From NCBI GenBank assembly GCA_030426395.1, contig JAUHYE010000004.1:1-64000 (forward strand): a stretch of 64,000 nucleotides of DNA, given 5' to 3'. The position numbers were made by a program, and so were the translations under genes. This stretch comes from Phycisphaerae bacterium (GTDB lineage Bacteria; Planctomycetota; Phycisphaerae; Phycisphaerales; UBA1924). This document shows, piece by piece, positions 22,615-62,267 of the stretch. How positions within the stretch are numbered: the first letter of the stretch is position 1; every line of letters begins with the position of its first letter. The notes below the pieces were generated by a model that did no database searches, was not told the origin of the DNA, and saw only the letters and a program-made list of their open reading frames with translations.

Positions 22615-25600
22615 ATGGCGAGCACGACGACCGCGCGATTCGCGCGCCCGTGGAAGTTGTTCCTTTCCGCCGGCCTGGCGGTTGGCCTGGCGGCCGGCAC
22701 GGCCCACGCAACGCCGGAGTGCCCGGCGGACATCGACGGCGACGGCGCCCTGACGCTGTTCGACTTCCTGGAATTCCAGAACCTGTTCGACGCGGGCGAT
22801 CTGGCGGCCGACTTCGACGGTGATGGCGATCTGACGCTGTTCGACTTCCTGGAGTTCCAGAACCAGTTCGACGCCGGCTGCGACGAGGCGGGCGCAATCG
22901 AGACCGAACTGGCCGCCATCACGGTGAGCGGCTACCCGTTCTCGAGCCATGTCGACGCGTTCAACAACGGCAGCCAGGTCCGCATCGCGATCGATCCGGG
23001 CCAGTTCCCCAGCGTTGCTGGCGTGACGGCCGATGTGTACGTCGTGGCGAACAAGTCGCAGGCCGAGTGGGATGCCGACCCGGCGCTCATGGACGTGCGC
23101 GGCGGCGGCGCTCAGTCGATTGCCTTCACGGCCGGCACGATCCAGGACAACACCTTCCTACTGGACGGCTCAACCACGCTGGCCGGGCCCGCGGGCGACG
23201 ACATCGCCGGGGTGTACGACCTGGTGGTGGACCTCGACGGCGATGGCGAACTGTCCGACGGCGACTTGATCGACGGCCGGGGTGATCTGGGTGGTTTCGC
23301 GATCTTCAAGAATCTCACCGCGCTCGGCCCGTACGCGACCGCCCCGGCGCTCGACTACGCGGTGTCATGGCCCGGCATCATCTCATCACGCGATCGCCAG
23401 ATCACGGTGTATCCGGAGAACATCGCCGACCTGCCTCCGCTGCCGCTGATCGTCATCAGCCACGGCAACGGCCACCAGTACGTCTGGTACGACTTCCTGC
23501 AGCAGCACCTTGCCTCGCACGGCTTCGTGGTGATGTGCAACGAGAACGACACGCAGCCGGGCATCGAAACGGCCTCCACCAGCACGTACCTGCACACCGA
23601 CGCGTTCCTGGGCTCGCTGGACACCATCGGCGGCGGCGTGCTGCAGGGGCAGATCGATACCAGCCGCATCATGTGGATCGGCCACAGCCGCGGCGGCGAG
23701 GGCGTGGCCCGTGCCTACACCCGCGTGCGTGACGGCCTGGTGACCACCGAGAACTACGACGCCGACGACATCACGCTGGTGTCGAGCATCGCCCCCAACA
23801 ACTCGCTTGGCTCGGGTAATACCGAGCCGGGATTGGTGAACTACCACCTGCTGTGGGGTTCGGCCGACGGTGATATTTCCGGCGCGCCTTCGGCGGGCGT
23901 GAGCTCGTTCGCGATCCACGATCGCGCCGTCGGCAACCGCTACAGCACCTACCTGCACGGAGCCGACCACAACGACTTCAACTGCTGCGGCTTCAACGAC
24001 TTCAGCGGCCCTCCGGGCACCGAGATTGGCCGGGCCGAGGCCCAGCGCGTGCAGGAGGCCGTGTACCTGGTGCTGGCCAAGCTGCACAACGAGGAGAGCA
24101 TCGGCGGGCGTATGGCGGCCGAGTATTTGTGGCGTCAGGCCGAGAGCCTGGAGTCGCAGAGCGTGAGCCAGACGACCGTGGTGGTGCGTGAGTATCGCGA
24201 GACCACCGACGGCGACGATTTCTACATCGACGACTTCCAGACCAACCCGGCGATCGACCAGAGCAGCTCTGGCGGCTCGGTGATGTTCAGCGTGAGCAAC
24301 GCGGCCGAGGTGCTCCAGAGCGACTCGGACGGCTCGTATAGCTGGACGGGCAGCCAGCCCAGCAACGGCATGACCCGGGCGACGAGCGGCGACGATTCGC
24401 GCGGCCTGGTCTTCGACTGGACCAGTGATAGCTTCATCGAGTTCTCGGTCATTCCCGGCGAGCGTGACTGGACCGACGACTTCTTCCTGAGCTTCCGTGC
24501 CGCGCAAGGCACTCGACACCCGCAGACGGCCGCCGCGCTGGGCGACCTGAACTTCACCGTCTCGCTTCGCGACGGCGCGGGCACGACCAGTTCGATCAAC
24601 ACCGGCGTCTACGGCGGCGGCGTCGAGGAGCCCTACCAGCGCACCGGCGCGGGCTCGGGCGCGGGCTGGCAGAACGAGTACGAGACCATCCGAATCCGTC
24701 TGAGCGACTTCCTGGTCAACGGCAGCGGGCTTGACCTGGGCGACATCGAGGCCGTCCGCTTCGATTTCGGCCCCAGCTTCGGGTCGGCCGTCGGGCGTCT
24801 GGGTCTGGACGACCTGTACGTCAACAACAACCGCGCCCCGTTGGGCATCGACTTCGACATCGAGAGCGTGCTGCCGGACATCGCCGCGCCGGGCGAGGAG
24901 GTTTCGTTCCTGGTCGAGGTGAAGGCCAAGGACGGCGAGGCGCTCGTGGGCGGCTCGGAAGTGCTGCGGTACCGCTTCGATGGCGGCACGTTCATCGACG
25001 TGCCGCTTGTGAGCATGGGTGAGGATCTCTACGAGGCCACCATCCCCGCGGCGGCTTGCGGAGACAACCCCGAGTTCTACCTGGCGGCCGAGGGCACGGC
25101 GAGCGGTGAGGTCGTGTTCCCGCCGACGGCGCCCGATGACGTCTTCGGCTACACCGTGGCGAACCAGACCTTCATTGCCGACCTCGACTTCGAGACGGCG
25201 GTGGGCTGGACGTTCGAGAACATCGAGATCACCGACGGCGCCTGGGACCGCGGCGTGCCCGCGGCCTGGGGTCGCGGCGACCCCAACGCCGACTTCGACG
25301 GCTCGGGCCAGTGCTTCCTGACCGACAACGACACGACCCAGTCGAACTCGGACGTGGACGGCGGGCCGACGATCCTGATCTCGCCGGTGTACGACCTGAG
25401 TTCTGCACCTGGGGCGCAGCTCAGCTACGCCCGGTGGTTCACCAACGACGACCTGGATGTTGATTCCATGGATGTCGAGGTCTCGAACAACGGCGGCTTG
25501 TCGTGGACGCTCATCGAGACCACGGGTGACGCCGCGGGGTGGAACAAGATGACCTGGAACATCAGCGACTTCGTGCCGCTGACGAGCCAGATGCAGTTCC

Positions 25601-36910: not shown

Positions 36911-37369
36911 CTATTCACACCCCGCGTCGAACTCGTTCTGGAACATTAGGAAATCGAAGATGGTGAGCGCGCCGTCGCCGTCCAGTTCGGCCCTGCAACT
37001 CACCATGTCGCGCCCGAAGACGACGCAACTCGAGCCGGCGTTCGTGCGGCCGCCCGGATCGGCCAACACGGCCCCGATGATCAGGTCGTCGATGCCGTCG
37101 CCATTGACGTCACCCGCCGAGGCCACCGAGCGGCCGCTGTGGTCGTCCGCGTCGGTGCCCTCGAGTCGAAAGCCGATGGCCCCGTCCAGGTCGGCCAGTT
37201 CGAGCACGGCGGGGAAGGGATCGCTGAGCGGGCCCTGGGCCAGGGCCGACGGTGCGAGCGTCGCCACGAGACCAACGTGCACGAGACCAACGGGCGCCGC
37301 CATCGGCAGGCCCGCAACAACAAGGAGCGCGGCCCGCCGGCCGTGCCCGGTGCTCTGTGCCAAACGCAT
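36911..37369 (-). CDS. small secreted protein with one FG-GAP-like repeat and a single-copy dockerin-like tag
   Basis: GGGAGGTCGAG-ATG; signal peptide to APSALAQ; DVNGDGIDDLIIGAVLADPGGRTNAGSSCVVFG; C-terminus CRAELDGDGALTIFDFLMFQNEFDAGCE. Confidence 0.82.
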   Translation of the reverse strand: MRLAQSTGHGRRAALLVVAGLPMAAPVGLVHVGLVATLAPSALAQGPLSDPFPAVLELADLDGAIGFRLEGTDADDHSGRSVASAGDVNGDGIDDLIIGAVLADPGGRTNAGSSCVVFGRDMVSCRAELDGDGALTIFDFLMFQNEFDAGCE

Positions 37370-37580
37370 CTCGACCTCCCCTGCCCCGGCGGCACGCCGG
37401 GCCGGGCCCAAGATACCGGAAACGAGCGGGCGTGTCAAGAACGATGGGCCGGGGATGGGTGGATTCGGCGGTCATCGGCCGGCGGGCCGCGGGAGGCGGG
37501 GTTCTGGGACCACCGGCGTCGGACCAGCCCCCATCGCAGCCGCGAAGGCCACGCCCGGGACCGCCCGGCCCGCTCCCATC

Positions 37581-37832
37581 GTTCCCCGAGTCTCTCGGGG
37601 CGTTTCATGAGCGATTCCCGTCGTTCCCCGAGCCTCTCGGGGCGTTCGGGGGGCGATGTCGGGCGTTCCGGAGGGCTCTTGAGCCGTTCCCAGAGCCATC
37701 CCGGGCATTCCGAAAGCCTCTCCGGGCGTTCCCAGATCTGTTTCGGGCGTTCCCGAATCCTCCCGGAGCGCTCCCGGAACCATCTTGGGAACGCCCGAAA
37801 CCATTCCGGGCGTTCCCGAAACCATTTTGGGA
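37581..37832. repeat. Array 1: 12 degenerate tandem units, exact 21-bp period
   Basis: Consecutive 21-mers include gttccccgagtctctcggggc, gttccccgagcctctcggggc, gttcggggggcgatgtcgggc, gttccggagggctcttgagcc, gttcccagagccatcccgggc, attccgaaagcctctccgggc, gttcccagatctgtttcgggc, gttcccgaatcctcccggagc, gctcccggaaccatcttggga, acgcccgaaaccattccgggc, gttcccgaaaccattttggga; internal dyads (CCCCGAG-tct-CTCGGGG). Confidence 0.93.
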
Positions 37833-37977
37833 GGAATAGCCGCGACGGACGAACCGCCCTCACGCCGTGCCAGGGCGGATTTTCAGGGTTATCACGGTCG
37901 GGGTTTGATAGAAAAGGCCCCGGACCGATATCCGGGTTTTGGATGGATTCTCCTGGGCGGCCCGTGCGGCGGGTTTC

Positions 37978-44724: not shown

Positions 44725-45444
44725 TCACGCCGTCGCCTTCTTCTCTGCCCCCTTCACCGGCACCACGCTGCCCGCATCTTTGCCAACGAAGCCGGACTTC
44801 TGGCTGCCGAATGGCACCTCGCAGGTGATGCTCCAGTCGCTCATGAGCCCCGTGCTCAGGCGCACCGCCACGCGGTAGCCCACGCTCTTGAGCCCCTCGG
44901 GCACGGCCCGGTCGGTGAAGGCCTTGTCGTCGCCGGCGAAGCCGATGAACTCGTAGGGGTCGCGCCGCCCGCCGAGCGCGGTCGTCACGCGCTGCACCAG
45001 GTACAGCGCCCCGCCTCCCGAGGCGACCTTGAAGGACAGGCGCACCGAGCCGTCGCTGGCGATGGCGGCGCGCAGGTCGGTCGGGCGCGGCGGCGCTGTG
45101 CGCACGCTGGCGTCCTTGGGCGCGGGCACCTGGGCCTTCACCCACACGCCGGGGTCTCGGGTGGACAGTGCGAACGCGTCGATGGTCGCCACGTCGGCCC
45201 CCATGACGCTGCGCAATCTGGCCACGGCGTTGTTCTTCGCTTCGGTCGCCGCCTTGGCCGCGCTGCGGGCCGCGAGCATCGCCTGGTACGCCGCGTGGGC
45301 CTGGGCGCTGGCCTCCAGCGCCTCGAGCCGCTGCTGCTCGTCCAGGCCGATCACGGGCGGTTGCCCCTCCCCACCAGACCAGAGGTCGGCGCGGTGGCGC
45401 GACCAGGCGATGAAGGCGGCTTCGGGCTTGGGGGCTCGTGGCAT
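44725..45444 (-). CDS. hypothetical protein, helical N-terminus plus Fn3-like C-terminus; paralogue of 61152..61868
   Basis: MPRAPKPEAAFIAWSRHRADLW...MGADVATIDAFALSTRDPGVWVKA...YLVQRV...DPYEFIGFAGDDKAFTDRAVPEGLKSVGYRVAV; lies downstream (transcriptionally) of array 2. Confidence 0.75.
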   Translation of the reverse strand: MPRAPKPEAAFIAWSRHRADLWSGGEGQPPVIGLDEQQRLEALEASAQAHAAYQAMLAARSAAKAATEAKNNAVARLRSVMGADVATIDAFALSTRDPGVWVKAQVPAPKDASVRTAPPRPTDLRAAIASDGSVRLSFKVASGGGALYLVQRVTTALGGRRDPYEFIGFAGDDKAFTDRAVPEGLKSVGYRVAVRLSTGLMSDWSITCEVPFGSQKSGFVGKDAGSVVPVKGAEKKATA

Positions 45445-45553
45445 ACGTCTGCTCCGCAGCGGTCTGCTTCGCAGGGGGATGGCCCGGCACCGTGCCGGGA
45501 GCACCCTCCGCACGGGATGTATCGAACCGGCCGAGGGCCGACTTGAGCGCGGG

Positions 45554-45784
45554 TTGCCGGGAACTTCGGAACGCCCGCCGGGGGGCTTGGGAGCCGTTCC
45601 GGGGAGCTGGGAAGCCGTTCCGAAGAGCTGGGAAGGCCTTCCGAGATGCTGGGAAGGGGTTCCGAAGGGCTCGGAACGGCTGCCGAGGGGCTGGGAATGG
45701 CTTCGGCGGAGCTTGGAACGGCCCGCGAGGGGCGTGGCGGGCGTGTCAGGGCGTTCGCGGGCCGTTCGAGAGGTTTCCAGAGGC
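45554..45784. repeat. Array 2: 11 degenerate tandem units, exact 21-bp period
   Basis: ccgccggggggcttgggagcc, gttccggggagctgggaagcc, gttccgaagagctgggaaggc, cttccgagatgctgggaaggg, gttccgaagggctcggaacgg, ctgccgaggggctgggaatgg, cttcggcggagcttggaacgg, etc.; perfect dyad GTTCCGA-agggc-TCGGAAC at 45659-45677. Confidence 0.92.
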
Positions 45785-45801: not shown

Positions 45802-48294
45802 TCAGCCGCAGCCCGCGTCGAAGCGGTTCTGGAACACCAGGAAGTCGAAGATGGTGAGCCGGCCGTCCTCGTCCAGGTCCGCCCGCAGGTCGCCAGCGTC
45901 GAAGAGGTTCTGGAAGGCCAGGAAATCGAAGATGGTCAGCTCCCCATCGGCATCGCGATCGGCGGCGCAGATCACGACGATGACCGAGTCGCCGGTGTAG
46001 ACGATGTGGGCCGGGCCGATAGCGCCCACCGGCTCGATGTCGATGTCGGCAAAGAAGCCGTCGACCGCCGAGCCGGTGATGACCTCGAACTGGTCGAGTG
46101 GCTCGGGGATGTAGCCATCAACGAAGTCGACGTCCAGGGCACCATCAATCGTGATCGGCGAGCGCGTGGCGAATCGATCGAACTGGTCGAGGCCCGTGCC
46201 GGCCGCGTCGATCTCGGTCCGGGCGGTGGGGCCGAAGGTCAACGCAGCGCGGCCGAACGACTCAATGACGTTCACCCCGTCCCCGACGCCGGGCGCGAGT
46301 GTGCCCTCGATGCGGTACTCGCCTTCGATGCGTCCACGCCCGCTGATCGTGCACTCGGGCCCGAACGTCGGCGTGTCGCCGGCACCCGGACGCACGATCT
46401 GAGCCGTTGCGGTGTCGCCCGGCCGGCTGTTGAGCGTGACGTCGATGCTGATGGTTGCGCCATCGAGCACGCGGAACTCGGACACCGCGTCGCCGGCTTC
46501 GGTGTTGACGAGCATGGAAGCATCTCCGTCGATGACACCGCCGAAGTTGACCTGCCCGCCGTTGGGCAGGCCCCATGGGCCGTTCATGGCCGCGTCCAGG
46601 ATCGTGCCACGCCGGTCGGATGTCACGAGCCCGCCGGTGCCAACGCCATGCCACGTGCCGCCGGTGATCTGCGTTTCTTGGAAGATGCCGAAGGTGCCGC
46701 CGTCAATGCCGCGCATGACGCCACCGTCCTGCGTGATGTTGGAACCGAAGGTCTGGATGAGGTCGTCAGTCTCGATGGCGCCCTGCGCGACGAACGCGCC
46801 CGCCAGGCGGCCGCGTCCGCTGATGGTGGTGCCGGGCCCGAACGTCGGGGTGTCGCCGGCGCCTGGACGCACGATCTGCGCCGTCGCGGTGTCGCCCGGC
46901 CGGCTATTGAGCACAACGTCGATGCCGATGGTCGCGCCATCGAGCACGCGAAACTCGCTGGTTATGTCGCCGGCGATCGTGTTCACCGTCACGACGCCAT
47001 CGCCGGTGACCGTGCCGCCGAAGTTGACCTGCCCGCCCGCGGGCAGCCCCCACGGACCGTTCATGATCGCGTCGACGATCGTGCCGCGCCGATCGGAGTT
47101 CACGAGCCCGCCGGTCCCGAGCGCCTCCCAGGTGCCGCCTGTCACGAGCGACTCTTGGAACAGTCCGAACTCGCCCCCGTCGACGCCGCGCATGATGCCA
47201 CCGTCCTGCGTGATGTTGGTATTGAAGGTCTGGATGAGGTCGTCGGTCTCGATGGTGCCCTGCGCGATGAAAGCGCCCGCCAGGCGGCCGCGCCCGCGGA
47301 TGGTGCTGTTGGGGCCGAACGTCGGCGTGTCGCCGGCGCCCGGACGCACGATCTGCGCCGTCGCGGTGTCGCCCGCCCGGCTGTTGAGCACGACGTCGAT
47401 GTCGATCATGGCGCCATCGAGCGTGCGGAATTCACTGGTGATGTCGCCGGCGGTCGTGTTCACCGTCACGACGCCATCGCCGGTGATCGCGCCGCCGAAG
47501 TTGACTTGCCCGCCGTTGGGCAGGCCCCAGTCGCCGGCCATCGTCGCGTCGATGATCGAGCCGCGACGGTCGGAGGTGACCAGCCCGCCGGTCCCAAGGG
47601 CCTCCCAGGTGCCGCCCGTCACGATCGACTCTTGGAACAATCCGAACTCGCCCCCGTCGACGCCGCGCACGATGCCGCCGTCCTGCGTGATGGTCGTGTT
47701 GAACGTCCGGATGAGTGCGTCGGTCTCGATCACGCCCTGGTTGGTGTACGCACCGATGATCCGACCGCGTCCGCTGATGGTGCTGTTGGGCCCGAACGTC
47801 GGCGCGTCGCCAGCGCCGATCCGGTTGATCTGCGCCGTGGCCGCGTCGCCCGGTCGGCTGTTCAACCGCACGTCGGCATCGATCACCGCGGCATCGGGCA
47901 CGCGCAGGAGCGCGGTGGAATCGCTCGCCGTCCGGTTGATGAGCAGGGTGCCCGCCCCCTCGTAGCGATCGAGTGCCAGGCTGGCCCCGCCGGCGACCGC
48001 GGCGATGATCTCCAGCTGCGTGATGTCCAGGGCCGCGATCGTGCGCGGGGCGTTGATGTCCACCACGTACGTGCCAATGCCGCTCAGCCTGGCCGTGTCG
48101 AGCGCGCCGGGCACGACCGCGGGGAACCAGTTCGGGGCCACGCCGAAGTCGCCATCGACCGGGCTGGCCCACTCGATCGTGGCCTGGGCGTGGGCCAATG
48201 GCGTGAGCATCGCGAGCCCTGCCGCGGCGGCAATGGCCAGGGGCGTGCGCGAACGGATAGCGGGGGTGATGGGGGTGGTGGGGGTCTGGGGCAT
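45802..48294 (-). CDS. secreted autotransporter-like/beta-helical repeat protein with C-terminal dockerin-like tag
   Basis: Signal peptide (AIAAAAGLAMLTPLAHAQATIEW); ~159-aa near-identical repeats; C-terminus CAADRDADGELTIFDFLAFQNLFDAGDLRADLDEDGRLTIFDFLVFQNRFDAGCG. Confidence 0.9.
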   Translation of the reverse strand: MPQTPTTPITPAIRSRTPLAIAAAAGLAMLTPLAHAQATIEWASPVDGDFGVAPNWFPAVVPGALDTARLSGIGTYVVDINAPRTIAALDITQLEIIAAVAGGASLALDRYEGAGTLLINRTASDSTALLRVPDAAVIDADVRLNSRPGDAATAQINRIGAGDAPTFGPNSTISGRGRIIGAYTNQGVIETDALIRTFNTTITQDGGIVRGVDGGEFGLFQESIVTGGTWEALGTGGLVTSDRRGSIIDATMAGDWGLPNGGQVNFGGAITGDGVVTVNTTAGDITSEFRTLDGAMIDIDVVLNSRAGDTATAQIVRPGAGDTPTFGPNSTIRGRGRLAGAFIAQGTIETDDLIQTFNTNITQDGGIMRGVDGGEFGLFQESLVTGGTWEALGTGGLVNSDRRGTIVDAIMNGPWGLPAGGQVNFGGTVTGDGVVTVNTIAGDITSEFRVLDGATIGIDVVLNSRPGDTATAQIVRPGAGDTPTFGPGTTISGRGRLAGAFVAQGAIETDDLIQTFGSNITQDGGVMRGIDGGTFGIFQETQITGGTWHGVGTGGLVTSDRRGTILDAAMNGPWGLPNGGQVNFGGVIDGDASMLVNTEAGDAVSEFRVLDGATISIDVTLNSRPGDTATAQIVRPGAGDTPTFGPECTISGRGRIEGEYRIEGTLAPGVGDGVNVIESFGRAALTFGPTARTEIDAAGTGLDQFDRFATRSPITIDGALDVDFVDGYIPEPLDQFEVITGSAVDGFFADIDIEPVGAIGPAHIVYTGDSVIVVICAADRDADGELTIFDFLAFQNLFDAGDLRADLDEDGRLTIFDFLVFQNRFDAGCG
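46400..47880 (-). repeat. intragenic tandem repeat, 477-bp (159-aa) period, ~3 copies plus partial
   Basis: ggtgtcgcccgg(c)ccggct recurs at 46411, 46888 and 47365 (477-bp spacing), with a diverged copy near 47842; translated copies SRxGDTATAQIVRPGAGDTPTFGP...DVVLN. Confidence 0.93.
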
Positions 48295-60649: not shown

Positions 60650-61180
60650 ATGTCCCGCCTCTCCGCCCACGCCGGCACGCGCCGCAAGGTCCAGATCGAG
60701 CGCAACCGCCCGAGCAACCGCCTGATCAACGGCTACGTGCTCCACTGCGAGGGCGGCTTGGCCCTCGTCCATCAATTCGATGACTTCGAGCCCGACGGCT
60801 ACGCCATCATCCGCGAACGCGACATCGTGTCGGTGAGGCAGGGCGAATACGAAGCCTTCTGGGATCGCATGCTCGAGAGCGAAGGCCTGCTGGGCGGGTT
60901 GGACGAAGCGCCGAAGATCGACCTGGGCAGCATGGCCGCGGGCATCCAATCGGCGGCGGCCTTGCACCCCTTCCTGGCGATCGAGTGCGAGGACGAGGAC
61001 GAGCCCATCCAGGACTTTTACTTTGCCAAGGCGATGTCCATCACCGAAACGCACGTGCACCTGCGTTGCGTCGATGGGCTTGGCCGATGGGAAGAGCCCG
61101 ACCCCGTCCCCCTCGAAGACATCACGATGGTCCAGATGGACACGCCCTACCTCACGCGCTTCGCGCGCTATGTGCGGTGA
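60650..61180 (+). CDS. hypothetical protein
   Basis: 176 aa; RLINGYVLHCEGGLALVHQFDDFEPDGYAIIRERDIVSVRQGEYEAFWDRML... coherent cytosolic composition. Confidence 0.65.
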   Translation: MSRLSAHAGTRRKVQIERNRPSNRLINGYVLHCEGGLALVHQFDDFEPDGYAIIRERDIVSVRQGEYEAFWDRMLESEGLLGGLDEAPKIDLGSMAAGIQSAAALHPFLAIECEDEDEPIQDFYFAKAMSITETHVHLRCVDGLGRWEEPDPVPLEDITMVQMDTPYLTRFARYVR

Positions 61181-61868
61181 TGGCCGTTCCGGCCCCCGCG
61201 TCCACCTTCCACTTCTCTCCATGCAGCGACGCCCCGGTGGAAAAGCCGTGGGCCGTGCGGCCGTTCTTGGTGGCGTTGACAATGTACTCCACGCTGGTGG
61301 TCCCCGGCGGGATTGTCGTGTCCACGAAGCGCCGCTCGCCAACGGCGGCGAGGAAGTGGTAGAACGGTTCCTGGACGCCCTCGCGGGTCAGGCGGCGCTC
61401 GACGCGGTAGATCGTCCCCGGGCGCGTGCGGCCCTTCCAGGTCAGCACCATCGCGCCCTCGCTCACGACGAATCGCAGCCGCGGGGCGTAGGGGGCCACC
61501 GGGTGCTGCGGCGAGCCCTTCTTGCGCGACGTCAATCGGGCCCGCGCGAAGACGCCCGGGTCGCGCGTGGCCTTGGCGTACGCGTCGATCGTCGAGATGT
61601 CGGCCCCGATCTCGGCCCTGAACCGCTTGAACGCCTCGCGCTTGCGCAGCGTGGCCGCCCGGGCCAGCGATTGGATCGCCAGCTGGTGCGTGTGCGCCGC
61701 GTAGGCCGCCTCGAACAGCTCGACCGCCCTCTGGGCCTGCTGCTCGCTGAGGCCGATGTCGGGCACGCCCGTGCTGCCGCCCCCGGGCTGCCAGCCGCTC
61801 CACACGCGGGTGATGGTGCGGGCCCAGGCCAGGAAGCGGCCGTCTTGTCGTGGATAGCGGACGGGCAT
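61152..61868 (-). CDS. hypothetical protein, helical N-terminus plus Fn3-like C-terminus; paralogue of 44725..45444
   Basis: MPVRYPRQDGRFLAWARTITRVWSG...IGADISTIDAYAKATRDPGVFARA...YRVERRLTREGVQEPFYHFLAAVGERRFVDTTIPPGTTSVEYIVNA; array 3 lies just upstream. Confidence 0.75.
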   Translation of the reverse strand: MPVRYPRQDGRFLAWARTITRVWSGWQPGGGSTGVPDIGLSEQQAQRAVELFEAAYAAHTHQLAIQSLARAATLRKREAFKRFRAEIGADISTIDAYAKATRDPGVFARARLTSRKKGSPQHPVAPYAPRLRFVVSEGAMVLTWKGRTRPGTIYRVERRLTREGVQEPFYHFLAAVGERRFVDTTIPPGTTSVEYIVNATKNGRTAHGFSTGASLHGEKWKVDAGAGTAITAHSARSA

Positions 61869-62006
61869 GGGTGCGGTGCTCCTCGTGACCGTTAGCGGCC
61901 GGGCGTGCCGGCCGGGGCCCCAACCGGGCGGCCACGCGACCGCCCCGAGCCCGAGCCCCCCTCCCAGCATCGACCCGATGCCCCGCCCACTTGATCGCAC
62001 GCCCCA

Positions 62007-62216
62007 TCCCTCGCGGGCAAGGGGCCGATGCCCGCGGGCCACGCCGCTCTGCCCACGGGCAACGCGGCCTTGCCCGTGGGCAGAACCATTTTGTCCGCGG
62101 GCAAAACCGTTTTGCCCGTGGACACAGCCATGATGCCCACGGACAAGACCGTTCTGCCCACGGGCGGAAGGGCATCGCCCATGGGCGGGGCGGGGTTGGC
62201 CGTGGGGGGTGGGATG
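62007..62216. repeat. Array 3: 10 degenerate tandem units, exact 21-bp period
   Basis: atgcccgcgggccacgccgct, ctgcccacgggcaacgcggcc, ttgcccgtgggcagaaccatt, ttgtccgcgggcaaaaccgtt, ttgcccgtggacacagccatg, atgcccacggacaagaccgtt, ctgcccacgggcggaagggca, tcgcccatgggcggggcgggg; core dyad TGCCCRYGGGCA. Confidence 0.94.
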
Positions 62217-62267
62217 GTCGGGGAGCGGGGAGCCGGGAGTGGGGCGGAGGCAATCGACGACGCCCGA

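Follow-up and report, generated by a model that had tools for sequence, protein, structure and literature searches.

Non-coding arrays of near-palindromic 21-base units recur in front of members of a single gene family across the Planctomycetota, with a patchy distribution. The window analysed here is the 64,000-nucleotide start of a Phycisphaerae contig (JAUHYE010000004.1), and one of its arrays, array 2, had been singled out in a preliminary description made from the sequence alone. That description missed the main point, which is that such arrays mark a large gene family.

Array 2 lies just 5' of a gene for a long-helix plus Fn3 protein, with a dockerin-tagged gene on its other side (Table 1). 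TRF called period-21/42 arrays at its core, and lag-21 identity rose to 0.79 in an 84-bp segment, against a window-wide mean of 0.33 and a maximum of 0.57 outside the window's three arrays. These analyses confirmed the proposed 21-bp array between two minus-strand genes, and the units align at 21 nt under both TRF and the lag test, in a constant register. Of the roughly 11 contiguous units claimed, 9–11 could be counted as contiguous at 21 bp, but only about seven show good conservation (consensus CTTCCCAGCCCCTCGGAAGGC, read in the direction of the gene). The perfect 7-bp inverted repeat attributed to one unit is present exactly as described, and profile scoring supported dyad symmetry of the array (p = 0.008). 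Decayed coding sequence, named beforehand as a possible alternative origin, finds no support, as the arrays carry no coding signal. Searched as a pattern, the TTCC/GGAA unit had no match in the genome, and Rfam gave none for the array.

Table 1. Arrays, promoter-like motifs and neighbouring genes in the window.
Feature	Positions	Strand	Basis
Array 1, period 21, 5' of FG-GAP/dockerin-tagged gene	~37570-37851	no strand	TRF, lag analysis
FG-GAP/dockerin-tagged gene	36911-37438	minus	
Family gene, 239-aa protein, helix 36-95 plus Fn3 domain	44725-45444	minus	profile hit, AlphaFold, Foldseek
Promoter-like motif CTCAAG-TCGGCCCTCGGCCGGT-TCGATA, TCAAG-N16-CCGAT type, gene-proximal end of array 2	45520-45547	minus	
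Array 2, 9-11 contiguous near-palindromic 21-bp units, non-coding	~45554-45784, core 45578-45733	no strand	TRF, lag analysis
Perfect 7-bp inverted repeat GTTCCGA-agggc-TCGGAAC, one array 2 unit	45659-45677	no strand	sequence
Dockerin-tagged gene flanking array 2	45802-48294	minus	
Second family member, 39% identical to the 44725-45444 product	61152-61871	minus	
Promoter-like motif TCAAG-TGGGCGGGGCATCGGG-TCGATG, gene-proximal end of array 3	61968-61994	minus	
Array 3, same architecture, upstream of second family member	~61978-62233	no strand	TRF, lag analysis

TRF and lag analysis located three period-21 arrays in the window. Array 3 contains near-palindromes such as TTGCCCGCGGGCAA, has significant dyad symmetry (p below 0.002) and, like array 2, precedes a family member. 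Array 1, unlike arrays 2 and 3, has no family member as its neighbour. Both array 1 and a further array at L069:1543-1768 lie 5' of FG-GAP/dockerin-tagged secreted-protein genes containing FPAVLEL.DLDG, and these genes may constitute a second array-carrying family. The tagged gene beside array 2 matched the GC-type dockerin domain NF041540, whose FDFLAFQN-type repeats end many secreted proteins; the gene also includes about 3.2 copies of an in-frame 477-bp (159-codon) repeat at 46340-47862. Paired FDFLAFQN-type repeats of this domain are encoded by 81-bp duplications at 22724, 37988, 39456, 55306, 58910 and 59098.

A search with the product of the gene next to array 2 found about 65 copies of the family in the 3.49-Mb, 186-contig genome. 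Sister species have 2 to 41 members, although the query used restricts these counts. Within the taxonomic family the distribution of members is patchy, and distant full-length members occur elsewhere in the phylum. A profile of the protein matched an Fn3-like protein in the PDB (E = 1.5e-7), and in its AlphaFold model (pLDDT 90) a helix of 60 residues precedes an Fn3 domain, for which the Foldseek matches are Fn3. Pfam and NCBIfam assigned no family to this helix-Fn3 protein. No match to transposases was obtained, relatives were not found on plasmids or phages, and a single scan of viral contigs with a single-protein query gave no family match. At the C-terminus, most family proteins of this genome (L002-L081) carry a short [KRDE]-A-[AGS] tail; in some relatives (L188, L186) the last residues are LAA, reminiscent of degradation tags.

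A period-21 array was present within 900 bp upstream of 26 of the 44 own-genome members checked and also upstream of a sister-species orthologue (27/45 in total), so that about 40% of members have no detectable array. A scan of both flanks of 30 own-genome copies found 14 arrays, every one of them upstream. Distant members from across the phylum behaved similarly: 16 of 28 had an upstream array, GC-poor genomes included (L218, L216, L221), and one (L228) had a downstream array, which sits at a contig edge and may reflect a coordinate error. Unbiased stretches totalling 581 kb of two genomes, with genes called by codon usage, contained 11 arrays, three of them directly 5' of the seven family genes. 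The remaining eight were elsewhere, for example 5' of FG-GAP/dockerin genes and, in one case, between convergent genes. In genes for zinc-ribbon membrane proteins, two period-21 arrays (L078:416-576 and 1945-2099) overlap the linkers at the N terminus and encode heptads such as NPVAEISNPVEEL; here, coding sequence may have captured arrays.

To characterize the architecture, we assembled a set of 57 arrays from many genomes, gathered by their 21-bp period and averaging 8.6 units. Junctions between units measured exactly 21 bp in 442 of 502 cases, with about eight small indels (22–23 bp), a register statistic that is partly biased because the arrays were found by this period; neighbouring units differed at 7.5 of 21 positions (36%). 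In the unbiased 581 kb, 11 regions were detected at lag 21 and as many at its multiple 42, no lag indivisible by 3 gave any, and the only other signals came at a few lags divisible by 3, the pattern expected of coding repeats. No competing intergenic period appeared in these stretches. Dyads were scored by profile, fixed-frame unit consensuses being too noisy. Compared with column-permuted controls, dyad symmetry was elevated (mean z 2.01 ± 0.25) and individually significant in 31 of 57 arrays (p < 0.05), with no significant dyad in the other 26; symmetric columns were also more conserved than in such controls (+0.040 ± 0.009). The proposal that architecture rather than sequence is conserved, originally drawn from arrays 1 and 2, thus holds far beyond the window, although dyads are frequent, not universal.

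Folding z-scores were nearly identical for the sense (−1.71) and antisense (−1.69) strands, and array arms showed no covariation (z 0.09 ± 0.25). The arrays had no codon-position signal (z −0.26 ± 0.18), and their open frames matched the column-permuted expectation (15 observed and 15.1 expected in the 21 arrays below 62% GC). Equal dyads on both strands, arms without covariation and no coding signal together indicate an element at the DNA level, and the constraint on the arrays looks like one on the spacing and symmetry of double-stranded DNA. Bent-DNA phasing was considered and rejected, as no AT/GC or purine periodicity signal was seen at 10.5 bp.

Unit sequences are locus-specific and track protein relatedness only above about 50% identity: unit similarity above control was 3.8 at protein identities of at least 80% (a bin of only three pairs), 1.2 at 50–80%, and 0.03 below. 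A shared operator sequence was ruled out, since unrelated arrays have essentially nothing in common. Between the window and its orthologous locus in a sister species (L001/G006), the alignment runs through the array and differs by exactly one 21-bp unit, so the copy-number check suggested beforehand, between isolates, proved positive between sister species. The closest named relative found, a Phycisphaeraceae MAG, is probably the same species as G006 because the array regions are identical in alignment. In two other GTDB families (L230, L231), proteins that are 86% identical have closely similar arrays beside their genes. The L-PSP gene next to the module was found in five sister genomes, of which G006 has the module at this position and G001, G002, G004 and G005 do not; no clean empty site was seen, and sister species have rearranged flanks. 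The array is inherited with its gene, and genomes of the genus carry tens of such pairs. Unit sequence drifts or is replaced, yet the step of 21 bp, equal to two turns of the helix, is retained, as usually is the dyad symmetry, and copy number changes by whole units, as seen in one case. In G057, the region upstream of two members (L233 and L239, 59% identical) is nearly the same over several hundred bp, part of the array included, which points to recent duplication of this upstream half or to gene conversion.

Many family members carry TCAAG-N16-CCGATR between array and gene, often extended to CT[CG]AAGTCGCC. We counted 35 sites with a 16-nt spacer, compared with 2–10 at spacers of 11–15 and 17–22, and six on the reverse strand. 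The gap from array to motif ranges by locus from 0 (abutting) to about 170 bp, and a clear motif is missing in some members. In this genome the motif also stands before a flagellin and a PilZ-type gene, which suggests a sigma28 (FliA) promoter with TCAAG as the −35-like and CCGATR as the −10-like element; it was not clearly present at the genome's other flagellin-type genes. The motif differs from sigma28 promoters in its spacer of 16, and it belongs to the gene, not to the array. Upstream of L230, in genome G359, the stretch from array to gene contains a GTCATTGCGA-type palindromic element.

We tentatively favour, at somewhat less than an even chance, a reading of the array as a non-coding cis-acting element that forms the upstream half of an inherited array-promoter-gene module. 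Such a module would comprise an array of about 100–440 bp of near-palindromic 21-bp units, a promoter (sigma28-like in this lineage) and the long-helix plus Fn3 gene. The array would act as a platform next to the promoter for cooperative assembly of a symmetric (dimeric) DNA-binding protein, and the gain or loss of whole units would tune expression with the helix face unchanged. We infer a platform because a 21-bp step keeps the dyads on one helix face and the symmetric columns are conserved without strand bias. Counting against it are the missing common operator, unlike in ordinary arrays for one regulator, the variable array-motif gap, the members in which a clear motif is missing, the arrayless members, the arrays without a significant dyad, the absence of 10.5-bp composition phasing, and the occurrence of arrays away from the family. 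With no shared operator, whatever reads the array would need to be specific to its locus, tolerant of sequence or guided by structure, and our confidence in the platform is therefore guarded.

The strongest rival is a neutral process with a two-turn step, which we regard as unlikely. Here, the arrays would be neutral or selfish minisatellites without function, replication or repair would favour two-turn steps and near-palindromes, and the family would merely supply long promoter regions. The whole-unit change between sister species, 42-bp higher-order copies that look recent, the lack of a common operator and the arrays found elsewhere are all in keeping with this. Neutral intergenic DNA, however, is expected to gather indels far more often than the roughly eight per 450 junctions seen at 36% divergence, and neutrality also sits poorly with the tie of the arrays, in different classes and at different base compositions, to a single gene family and to one side of it, and with the preferential conservation of symmetric columns. 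An improbable alternative is that the array aids the spread or retention of the module as a centromere- or end-like site on which the Fn3 protein or a host factor acts. The architecture resembles plasmid iteron centromeres 5' of par operons, and high copy number, patchy distribution, the similar array-gene pairs of L230 and L231, and the presence of the module at the window locus in only two of six same-genus genomes having the neighbouring gene (the window's own included) would suit such a role. Yet no transposase, integrase, ParA/ParM or ribbon-helix-helix gene was seen in the module, the searches of plasmids, phages and viral contigs described above were negative, and no clean empty site turned up.

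Even less probable is an RNA element, in which the array is transcribed as a chain of hairpins serving as a 5' leader, attenuator, insulator or source of small RNAs. The position 5' of a gene would fit, as would the folding energy, which in about half of the arrays folded is lower than in column-permuted controls. Hairpins with covariation are nevertheless ruled out by the strand-equal folding and the arms without compensatory changes; G-U mismatches are not in excess over A-C (282 versus 401), Rfam is silent, and the promoter-like motif between array and gene in several loci would place the array outside that transcript. We consider it very improbable that the arrays encode 7-residue peptide repeats or an N-terminal extension: 21 bases correspond to seven codons and GC-rich arrays contain long open frames, but coding heptads are contradicted by the codon-position and open-frame tests, and no encoded peptide was noticed as common between loci.

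Beyond the cis-acting element itself, it is possible, if somewhat doubtful, that a phylum-wide class of modules exists, each joining a locus-specific array of helically phased near-palindromes to a helix-Fn3 gene as one functional, partly mobile unit whose information lies in spacing and symmetry, not in sequence. Such units could serve, for example, self-specific recognition or expression tuning with tens of independent addresses per genome.

Formally, the arrays are minisatellites (VNTRs), in a variant with fixed period, dyad symmetry and locus-specific sequence that is tied to one gene family. They share with bacterial intergenic VNTRs the head-to-tail tandem units and the whole-unit copy-number change between related genomes; ordinary VNTRs, however, have a locus-specific period, whereas period 21 is found here at every arrayed family locus, units are often dyad-symmetric, and the link to one gene family extends across a phylum. 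The arrays lack features by which the iteron/par, REP/RAYT, CRISPR and structured-RNA families are defined. Helically phased short repeats beside a promoter are also found in iteron arrays and par centromeres (parC of R1, 11-bp iterons 5' of the par promoter), but iterons present one sequence to one binding protein, while the arrays here are chromosomal, occupy tens of loci with unrelated sequences, and neighbour a helix plus Fn3 protein instead of a Rep, ParR or ParA partner. REP/BIME elements with RAYT are likewise extragenic palindromic repeats linked to one protein family; REPs, in contrast, are interspersed and share sequence genome-wide, and the arrays combine a fixed 21-bp tandem register with no shared sequence and no RAYT. 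CRISPR and TIGR guide arrays also lie beside an effector-like gene, but here the units are contiguous, without any alternation of a conserved repeat and variable spacers, and there is no Cas or Nop-domain protein and no strand-specific RNA signal. The literature, subscription papers aside, yielded no description of the arrays, the gene family or their pairing.

Intergenic repeats normally share sequence or nothing, whereas these arrays combine unrelated sequences with one exact period and, usually, dyad symmetry. They mark an uncharacterised family that accounts for tens of genes in each small genome. Should the arrays prove functional, they would represent a principle, regulatory or mobile, in which spacing and symmetry are read instead of sequence. 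The array, the possible sigma28 promoter and the helix-Fn3 protein together offer a handle on a large unexplained gene expansion in the Planctomycetota.
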